Source: an uncultured bacterium (GTDB lineage: Bacteria > Planctomycetota > Phycisphaerae > Phycisphaerales > SM1A02). From it: a stretch of DNA of 64,000 nt. Positions 49,297 to 52,499 of the stretch are shown here, piece by piece (the stretch's first letter is position 1; every line of letters starts with the position of its first letter). The notes beneath the pieces were generated by a model. That model did no database searches. It was not told the origin of the DNA and saw only the letters and a list, made by a program, of their open reading frames with translations. The stretch lies in assembly GCA_903891095.1 (NCBI GenBank), contig CAITDI010000121.1, positions 1-64,000 of the forward strand, given 5' to 3'. The translations under genes and the position numbers were made by a program.

Positions 49297-49514
49297 GCGC
49301 GCGGTCGGCGGGGGCACGTACGGGGCACGAGCCCCAGTGTTTCGCGCGAGACTCCCGCAGTGAGGCGTCCGCCCTAATCGCGCTCCATCGGCGTCGATCG
49401 TCCATCGATACGAACTCTGGAGTCACGGAGCGCAGCATCTCTGGCGATGTCCGTGCAGTCGCGCAATCGCCCTCGTGGGAAATGCGCGGCGATAGGCCCA
49501 CACGGAGTTCCCGC

Positions 49515-52499
49515 ATGTCGCTGCATTCCCGCTTCGTCGTCAGCATGAGCATCGTCGCGTCGTGGCTCGCCCCCGCGGCGCTTGGAGGCGCCGCAGTCGG
49601 CACCGCCGACGAGGTCGTCGCCGCGCTCAAGGCCGGCAACGCCCGCTTTGTCGCTGGCACCGCACAGAACCCGCATGCAGGCATCGACCGCGTCGTCGAG
49701 ACCAGCACAGGCCAGACGCCGATGGTCACGATCCTCGGCTGCTCCGACTCTCGCGTGCCGCTCGAGCGCGTGTTCGACCAGGGCGTCGGCGACATCTTCG
49801 TCGTCCGCGTCGCGGGCAATGTCGCCGACACCGATGAGATCGGCTCGGTCGAGTACGGAACCGGTCACCTGCACACGCCCGTGATGATCGTGCTTGGCCA
49901 CACCAAGTGCGGCGCCGTGAGCGCCGTCGCCACGGGCGCGGTCGTCCACGGCAGCATTCCCGCGCTGGTCGACAACATCGTTCCCGCCGTCGAGCGTGCG
50001 CGCCACGCGCACCCGGGCGTGGCCGACAAGGACATCATTCCCTTCGCCGTGCGCGAGAATGTGCTCGAGTCGATCGCATCGACCTTCACCCACAGCGAGG
50101 AGATCCGCGATCTCGTCAAGGAAGGCAAGCTGCGCGTGATCGGCGCCGTGTACGACATCGACACGGGTTCCGTCGAATGGCTCGGCGATCATCCCGAGCA
50201 GAGCGCGCTCCTCGTGGCTCCGCCCGCGACGACGGTTGCGCATGCCGATCCTCACGCTGGCGACGCGCACGCCGCCGATACCCACGCGGCCGCCACGCCC
50301 GCCGGCGCCTCCGCAGCCGAGCGCTCGACGCTCGCAGCCACTGGCGCGTTCACGAACCCCGAACTCCAGGTGGCCAAGCGCGCGCCCTTCGGCGCCGCCG
50401 CAGGAAAGGCGCGCGACTTCACCGTCGCCGAGATTCCCGATCATTCGCCGAGCCTGCTGCCGAACGTCTTCGGCGCGGCTGCGATCCTCGCGCTCCTCGT
50501 GACTCTCGTCGCCTGCTGGCGCCTCGCGCGCACGGTGTCGGGCGACGGCAAGGTCTCGCACTCGATCACGCTCGGCGCCAAGCTCGCCGGCGGGTTCGGC
50601 CTCCTCGCGACGGGCATCCTCGCCGTCGCGACCGTTGCGATGCGCTCCAACGACCAGGTCTCCGGCGCGATGCACGAGATGGAATGCCGCGTGTCCGAAG
50701 TCAGCATCATCGAGGCGACCAAGGTCGACCTGTCTGGCATGCGCCTCGCGGTCAAGGGCTTCCTCCTCAGCAACAGCGACCAGGACCTCGCGCATTTCTC
50801 CGATGAAGTCGCCTCGTTCGAGCAGAAGCTCGCCAAGGCCAAGGCGACGATCCGCGATCCCGAGCAGCTCAAGCAGTTCGCCACGATCGAGCAGAACCTC
50901 AAGGAATACGAGGCGAAGTTCACCGATGTCGTCGCCCACATCGACGAGCGCAACGGCGTGATCGACAGCCAGATGAACGTCGCCGCCGCCCGCACCAGCG
51001 CGCTCCTCACCGAGATCGCCACCACCGCGCACGCCGACGGGGATACCGCAAAGGCGCTGCTCACCGCCGAGGCGGGCGAGTACTTCCAGTCCGCGCGGCT
51101 CGGGTTCTTCAAGTACCTGCGCTCGCATGAGGACACGCTCGCCAACGACGCCAAGACCAACGCCGGCAAGATGGGCACGATGGTGCAGGAGCTGCACGCC
51201 GAGATCAAGAATCCCAAGCGCGTCGCCTGGCTCGCCGAGGCCGACGAGGCCGCGCGCTTCTGGACCGCGCGCATGGACCACGCGATCGAGCTGCAGCATG
51301 AGCGCGATGTGCTCGTGAAGCAGGGGCTCGACCAGATCGGACCCAAGATCCACGACCAGTCGTCCACGCTCGCGCAGGCGCTCACCGCCCAGCAGACGGC
51401 CGCCCGCGAGCGCGCGGACACCGCGGCTGCATCGGCGCGCACGCTCGTGACGGCATTCTCGGTGGCGATCGCGATCTTCGCGGTCATCGTCGCCGTGCTC
51501 ATCGTGCGTGGCGTGCTCACGCCGCTCCGCAACCTCGTCGCGAGCATCGTGACGATTCAGGAGACGCGCGACCTGACCCGCCGCACGGGCGTCGCCACGC
51601 TCGACGAGGTCGGCCGCGTGGGCGCGTGCTTCGACGGGCTCGTCGACACATTGCACGGGATCATCCGCGACGTCAGCTCGGGCGCGACCGAGATCGACGC
51701 CGGCGCGACGCAGATCGCGTCCGCCAGCCAGTCGCTCGCCGAAGGCGCAAGCCGACAGGCCGCGAGCCTCGAGGAGATCAGCGCGTCGATCGAGGAGATG
51801 TCGTCGATGACGCGGCAGAACGCCGACAACGCGCGCTCCGCCAACGAGGTCTCCGAGGCCTCGCAGACGGCCGCAGCCAACGGCCAGCGCGAGATGAAGC
51901 AGATGGCCGAGGCAATGTCGGAGATCAAGCAGTCGAGCGCGGAGATCGCCAAGATCATCAAGGTGATCGACGAGATCGCGTTCCAGACCAACCTGCTCGC
52001 CCTCAACGCCGCGGTCGAGGCCGCGCGCGCGGGAGAGGCTGGCAAGGGATTCGCCGTGGTCGCCGAGGAAGTGCGCTCGCTCGCCAAGCGCTCCGCCGAG
52101 GCCGCCAAGAGCACGGCCGAGATGATCGAGGACTCGACCTCGCGGGCCAACCGCGGCGTCGAGATCGCCGCGCGCGTCGGGCAATCGCTCGACGAGATCG
52201 CCGGCGCGACGACGCGCGTCAACTCGCTGCTGTCCGAGATCGCCTCGGCGTGCGACGAGCAGGCGAAGGGCATCACGCAGGTCAACACCGGCGTGACCGA
52301 GCTCGACCGCGTGACGCAGTCGACGGCGGGCAACTCCGAGGAGCTCGCATCGGGCGCCGAGGAAACGGCCTCGCAGATCTCGTCGCTGCAGTCGCTGGTG
52401 AGCCAGTTCAAGACCGACGCGAATGGCGCGGTCTCGATGCGCAAGTCAAGTTCCCACAAGACGCCGTCGCACAAGCTGGAACCGAAGGCCGCGGCCTAG
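49515..52499 (+). CDS. Beta-carbonic anhydrase / methyl-accepting chemotaxis receptor fusion
   Basis: 994 aa from ATG 49515, with ACGGAG 7 nt upstream. A signal peptide (1-26) is followed by a complete beta-carbonic anhydrase (about 30-230): zinc ligands C76 (CSDSR), H129 and C132 (HTKCG) and the D78-R80 dyad, so it should convert CO2 to bicarbonate. A His-rich linker (about 243-259) leads to a membrane helix (314-335), a second (355-377), a helical sensor domain of about 265 residues, a third membrane helix (644-666), HAMP (about 667-720) and a chemoreceptor signalling domain with [20 protein letters not shown]. With a cleaved leader the topology puts the anhydrase and the sensor domain in the periplasm and the signalling hairpin in the cytoplasm. 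No CheR-tethering pentapeptide at the end. The reading frame is unbroken. Confidence 0.93.

Follow-up and report, generated by a model that had tools for sequence, protein, structure and literature searches.

MCPs of the McpS type (2yfa), which carry a helical bimodular (HBM) sensor, have in common with the protein described here the sensor fold, the MCP signalling domain, the position of the HAMP domain (here a match below the Pfam cut-off) and the flanking transmembrane (TM) helices, and to our knowledge none of the other known HBM receptors carries an enzyme. The protein considered in this work is encoded in a stretch of 64,000 nucleotides from an uncultured planctomycete of the SM1A02 lineage (hereafter, the window), and it differs from the McpS type in what precedes the sensor part: an N-terminal carbonic anhydrase (CA), then a linker, the juxtamembrane motif and an additional TM helix. 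Its CA shares the fold and the catalytic residues of the secreted-type β-CAs (NF011765; Rv3588c, 2a5v), from which it is set apart by its fusion to a chemoreceptor and by a score below the curated cut-off of NCBIfam NF011765, the PRK15219 carbonic anhydrase subfamily (141.6 bits versus 221). A β-CA joined to a membrane protein is also found in the SulP transporter fusions; however, the partner there is a transporter and here it is a receptor. Many CA frames of about 757-808 aa in the planctomycete family f32 may be of the SulP-CA type.

How bacteria steer in gradients of CO2 or bicarbonate is poorly known, and we know of no receptor that has an enzyme as its sensing module. The chemoreceptor TlpA of Helicobacter pylori has been reported to respond to bicarbonate or acid, and the accessible portion of that report leaves open whether it senses bicarbonate directly (PMC5245789); its sensor, as far as the accessible text goes, is a dCache domain (PMC8406319), whereas that of the window receptor is of the HBM type. 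In the accessible part of another paper, a CA gene and MCPs are mentioned separately (PMC7691447). Searches of the accessible open literature on CA-chemoreceptors and on CO2 or bicarbonate taxis found no description of a CA-chemoreceptor; domain-architecture databases may list the fusion.

The gene and its domains

The initial annotation had described one unbroken frame of 994 aa joining a β-CA to a chemoreceptor, and this was borne out: the frame is open throughout (Table 1) and Pfam places both a CA and an MCP domain in it. Pro_CA (PF00484) matches residues 72-220 (E 2.2e-37; 129.2 bits, cut-off 25.7) and MCPsignal matches residues 778-934 with the conserved tip present (E 1.1e-49; 169 bits, cut-off 34.6). 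The HBM, 4HB_MCP_1 and CHASE3 profiles overlap at about residues 352-543, HBM (PF16591) scoring 31.8 bits against a cut-off of 29.8, and the region has the six-helix bimodular fold. All five catalytic residues attributed to the CA (C76, D78, R80, H129 and C132) are indeed in place. The receptor had been described as having three TM helices, a HAMP and a signalling domain; the TM helices and the signalling domain hold, while the HAMP match, correctly placed after the last TM helix, reaches 21.7 bits against a cut-off of 25. As for the signal peptide, there is an N-terminal hydrophobic stretch, clearer in several relatives and borderline in the window protein, where its hydropathy is 1.63 against a threshold of 1.6. 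The linker, which had been called His-rich, is only moderately so, with five His in 80 residues (6.2%, versus 2.8% elsewhere).

Table 1. Features of the CA-chemoreceptor gene; positions are those of the window
Feature	Position	Strand	Basis
Likely ribosome-binding site GGAG	49504..49507	+	Sequence, 7 nt before ATG
Whole CA-chemoreceptor gene, 994 aa plus stop	49515..52499	+	Open frame
N-terminal hydrophobic segment, residues 1-29, probable signal peptide/anchor	49515..49601	+	Hydropathy and topology of relatives (inferred)
β-Carbonic anhydrase domain, residues 34-226 (Pfam Pro_CA 72-220)	49614..50192	+	Pfam, structure matches
Cys76 codon, zinc ligand	49740..49742	+	Homology
Asp78-Ser-Arg80 codons, catalytic dyad	49746..49754	+	Homology
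His129 to Cys132 codons, zinc ligands	49899..49910	+	Homology
Linker, low-confidence (disordered), moderately His-rich, residues 233-271	50211..50327	+	Composition and AF2 model
Juxtamembrane motif F..PEL....R..FG..AG, residues 272-300	50328..50414	+	Alignment; CA-less homologues keep it too
Extra TM helix, CA/receptor-proper boundary, residues 315-337	50457..50525	+	Hydropathy, AF2 model
Receptor TM helix, about residues 353-376	50571..50642	+	Hydropathy, AF2 model
Helical bimodular (HBM) sensor; alignment to the McpS LBD covers residues 393-626	50691..51392	+	Pfam, AF2, structure match
Last TM helix, about residues 646-668	51450..51518	+	Hydropathy, AF2 model
HAMP, residues 662-714, under Pfam cut-off	51498..51656	+	Pfam
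MCP signalling domain, residues 735-970 (Pfam 778-934)	51717..52424	+	Pfam, structure matches

Predicted structure

Prediction of the whole chain, which had been proposed as a check, recovered the CA fold and the six-helix sensor in an AF2 model built on 17 sequences (mean pLDDT 76.2, pTM 0.42). In this model, a confident CA fold is followed by a linker (residues 237-272) with pLDDT below 50, a TM helix, a short hairpin and then the sensor, made of six helices of the long type. The solved structure nearest to the modelled CA part is that of Rv3588c (2a5v; Z 25.1, 1.9 Å over 191 residues), and the modelled sensor matches the McpS ligand-binding domain (2yfa; Z 19.1, 1.9 Å over 230 residues), which has been solved with malate or succinate (2yfa/2yfb). 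The C-terminal part resembles the solved chemoreceptor signalling domains 1qu7 and 3zx6. No bicarbonate pocket was identified in the HBM sensor.

Conservation in the genus and the order

Among 16 genomes of the genus, the fused gene is unbroken in five, that of the window included (G000, G001, G005, G008 and G013), with a run of N inside the linker in G008, and in a sixth (G003) it is split by contig ends. A receptor without CA occurs in three (G002, G011 and G012), and neither version was found in the other seven of the 16. In another family of the order, G045 encodes a near-full-length relative that is 39% identical. The sensor alignment matched 58 of 400 genomes drawn from the order, and the CA was in the same frame as the sensor in 12 of the 30 matches that received loci (G003 aside), which are those in which CA presence was checked. 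The two halves might have been separate genes in close relatives, a finding that would have counted against the initial annotation; instead, both the genus and other families of the order have conserved the fusion. An assembly error can be discarded: five genus genomes (that of the window among them) and other families have the frame intact, and records from cultured strains (L104 and L126) also contain the fusion type.

The selection acting on each part could be compared from the dN/dS values of the window gene versus G005, G001 and G008, which were 0.18, 0.11 and 0.16 for the CA domain, 0.25, 0.19 and 0.29 for the sensor, 0.06, 0.06 and 0.09 for the MCP signalling domain and 0.37, 0.57 and 0.97 for the linker, the loosest part. 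The CA is thus under stronger purifying selection than the sensor and under weaker purifying selection than the MCP signalling domain. Comparison with the more distant G013 and G045 goes in the same direction, near saturation.

The same receptor type exists without CA in three of the 16 genus genomes and elsewhere in the order, so it can be presumed to function without the enzyme, and the occurrence of the CA-less form in such close relatives marks the CA as an add-on that is not indispensable to this receptor type. The CA-less homologues retain the juxtamembrane motif and the extra TM helix, and a Pfam scan (E up to 0.01) of ten CA-less receptors found no other domain replacing the CA. The motif, in the form F..P.L....R..FG..AG, is kept with some variation whether or not the CA is present (window 50328-50414, L011, L012, L020, L021 and L144-L158). 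When the signalling domains of G045 and the window are aligned (L004 and L010), that of G045 has two extra stretches of 14 residues, as if a shared front half (CA, motif and sensor) sat on two receptor length classes.

Recurrence across bacteria and integrity of the catalytic site

The CA-to-sensor alignment was run against one genome per species (84,980 species), and the best 80 loci, together with later genome searches, yielded at least 34 different frames in which a CA and an MCP domain occur together, in seven named phyla (Planctomycetota, Verrucomicrobiota, Spirochaetota, Zixibacteria, Thermodesulfobacteriota, Hydrogenedentota and Sumerlaeota); since likeness to the fused protein decided the ranking of the 80 loci, these counts are no frequency. 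Most of the frames come from metagenome bins, and two cultured strains are among the matches listed, Desulfogranum mediterraneum DSM 13871 (L104) and Desulfopila aestuarii DSM 18488 (L126). The fusion is rare in both genome draws. Of 392 genomes drawn from the phylum of the window, three were confirmed to have it (G000, G045 and G530), the examination covering part of the long frames and a minority of those of 555-826 aa. Judged by frame length at E <= 1e-60, it occurs in 1 of 297 genomes drawn around G401, namely G401 itself. The long CA frames of G061 and G671 (961 and 925 aa) have no MCP domain. Other arrangements were also encountered: in L228:4874-10501 (G651), a frame that stays open over at least 1876 aa carries a CA domain at its far end (residues 1656-1852), and two frames of 699 and 690 aa, L357:2180-4276 (G1109) and L358:2821-4890 (G1110), contain a CA (about residues 172-372) and lack an MCP domain.

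All five catalytic residues (C-D-R-H-C) are present in 38 of 39 CA domains from the at least 34 distinct frames. Among the matches listed, the Asp-Arg dyad is found in all 39 fused CA domains and the complete set of three zinc ligands in 38. The exception is the fused CA of L061/L067, which has Ser for Cys76 and Asn for His129, so that two zinc ligands are lost in a domain that is otherwise well kept; it is a natural and probably inactive variant.

The nature of the substrate has to be weighed here, as the input might instead be COS or CS2, taken as substrate by the β-CA fold, or zinc bound by the His-rich linker. COS hydrolase does have the same fold as CA, many of the fusion hosts are, judging by their names, sulfate reducers, and in most of 40 rows, several of them duplicates of one gene, His makes up roughly 4-8% of the linker versus 1-3.5% in the rest of the same frame. 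However, the sequence match to the Rv3588c CA (1.9e-35) far exceeds that to COS hydrolase (2.9e-5), and His is scarce in some linkers, with none in L050, two in L045/L065 and one in 156 residues in L097. We regard such an input as very improbable.

The CA as a recurrently added module

On a quick tree of the CAs, the origin of the fused CAs from one clade was rejected (AU test, p = 0.000187; four distant rows, L003, L027, L031 and L032, omitted), and the state changes between fused and unfused at least 13 times. In this CA tree, L064, which is truncated at the end of its contig, was treated as fused, the partial second CA of L075 was omitted and near-identical cores were merged. On the sensor tree, from which L172 and L174 were dropped, CA presence changes eight times, one of them due to the contig break in G003: its locus L173 was scored as CA-less though the CA lies on another contig, so that the figure becomes seven rather than eight. 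The CA tree places the CA of G045 in a strongly supported group made mostly of CAs from sulfate reducers, with the window CA outside that group. As the two CAs are placed apart although their receptor halves are related, the CA cassette has been swapped or gained separately.

The position of the CA in the chain also varies. In the window type it is N-terminal, followed by the linker, two TM helices, the sensor, a further TM helix and the signalling domain; in five frames (L069, L075, L126, L135 and L141) two tandem CAs precede the receptor; and in three (L097, L116 and L333) the CA is nested between sensor helices. In G1234, a paralogue (L356:2258-4432) is followed 76 nt downstream by the nested receptor (L356:4509-7403, a gene also represented by L333). 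The paralogue is 71% identical and is without the CA stretch of about 230 aa, the two adjacent receptors differing chiefly by the CA insertion. This insertion falls in the loop that follows the third of the long helices of the sensor, with helix boundaries taken from a weak model of L116 (mean pLDDT 45.4, two sequences) that is usable for the rough helix pattern only. The nested CA is flanked on both sides by Ala/Pro/His-rich stretches, and L360 is a further CA-less homologue. This paralogue pair is the plainest sign of the insertion of a CA into a ligand-binding domain. The scatter of the fused CAs over more than one clade, their nesting and the existence of paralogues that differ by the CA together indicate that the CA is a recurrently added module. 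A related case is L313/L355 (L355:4090-6105, G1138), where a sensor with a nested CA ends after the second TM helix with no MCP domain in the frame; it is perhaps truncated, or may work with a partner, and it is not among the 34 CA-MCP frames.

Nesting raises the question of whether the CA could be the receptor itself, with CO2 or bicarbonate occupying its zinc site, or a CA dimer opening and closing with pH, as the event relayed to the helical bundle and turnover being incidental. The CA inside the sensor bundle of the three nested frames, and the fused CA that stays in frame without two zinc ligands, would suit this reading, as would the fact that β-CAs and MCPs are both built from two-fold dimers. 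Nevertheless, the very low confidence of the linker in the window model and the long low-complexity linkers of the nested type leave no evident rigid path for the relay, and the Asp-Arg dyad, which a pure binder would not need, is present in 39 of 39 domains. We consider it unlikely that the CA acts in this manner.

It could also be argued that the receptor merely anchors or places the CA, for instance at the pole, to serve local pH or carbon supply, and that the CA stands outside sensing. This would fit the CA-less versions of the same receptor type and the N-terminal location of the window-type CA on a TM helix of its own. Yet a single TM helix or a lipid anchor would be sufficient for anchoring, the repeated fusion to MCPs whose sensor regions escape the sensor profile is not what mere anchoring would lead one to expect, and for such a purpose a CA nested in a ligand-binding bundle would be odd. 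To us, this is quite an unlikely explanation.

Proposed function

The reading that we prefer, at just under an even chance, is that the protein is a chemoreceptor with a tethered extracytoplasmic β-CA that speeds the exchange between CO2, bicarbonate and protons beside the HBM sensor, whose fold in the solved relative McpS takes small carboxylates as ligands. The CA domain would lie outside the membrane and be enzymatically active, and the ligand would be inorganic carbon or pH. The tethered CA would interconvert CO2 and bicarbonate plus a proton next to the HBM sensor; the sensor, or the pH beside it, would then follow dissolved inorganic carbon during the seconds-long comparison made by a swimming cell, and the signal would pass through the HAMP and the MCP tip to CheA/CheW and the flagella. 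Swimming cells compare concentrations within seconds, a time too short for CO2 to be hydrated without catalysis; with a CA tethered to it, a receptor that reads bicarbonate or pH would therefore keep pace with a CO2 gradient. The flexible-looking linkers of both the window type and the nested type favour local catalysis over rigid mechanical coupling, and we infer that coupling runs through the product made nearby and not through motion of the CA domain, as we infer the direction of taxis.

The chemotaxis kinase partners and the motor are present in the genome of the window, where five CheW matches fall in frames that include both CheA-sized (two, of 899 and 798 aa) and CheW-sized ones, and where there are three flagellin matches. 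The joint sensing role, advanced at the outset as conjecture, is strengthened by the repeated and independent fusions, by the CA nested in the sensor and by the near-complete conservation of the catalytic residues; the CA-less receptors of three of the 16 genus genomes and the one damaged CA count against a simple form of it. A broader proposal, which we deem possible and rather doubtful, is that CA chemoreceptors form a class of CO2/bicarbonate receptors that bacteria have invented repeatedly, with a functional enzyme, added to the ligand-binding domain or inserted in it, that would make or equilibrate the ligand that is read; this would be enzyme-coupled chemoreception. An apparently intact CA that has been joined to chemoreceptors several times, once visibly as an insertion separating neighbouring paralogues, suggests how swimming cells might track CO2 or bicarbonate in solution, and the natural pair with and without CA and the two cultured strains provide direct test systems.

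Stand-alone CAs and their neighbourhood

No CA gene was found beside CA-less receptors with the window-type sensor in the flanks of the loci examined, which are short at contig ends in L147, L148, L151, L152 and others; the exception is L106, where a CA frame precedes, by 27 nt, an MCP frame whose sensor is related. An adjacent MCP gene, always on the same strand, was found at 5 of 84 stand-alone CA loci, three of the five being from Magnetococcales; these 84 are loci with a CA frame without an MCP domain, among them L064, which is probably fused but truncated where its contig ends, as well as a few CAs that end other long frames (L228, L240 and L241). None was adjacent at 40 stand-alone CA loci of the draw around G401 (40 of its 41 non-fused rows). 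Adjacent separate CA and MCP genes are therefore rare overall (5 of 124 loci). MCP frames farther off amount to only 8 in 961 kb, which by hand arithmetic gives a chance expectation of about 0.6 adjacent, in an adjacency set drawn mostly (80 of 107 loci) by likeness to the fused protein. The neighbourhood link between stand-alone CAs and MCP genes is weak.

Besides the fused CA, two further copies are encoded in the genome of the window. In two genomes of the genus, another, stand-alone CA (L175 in G011 and L176 in G008) lies 1.4-2.1 kb from an MCP gene.
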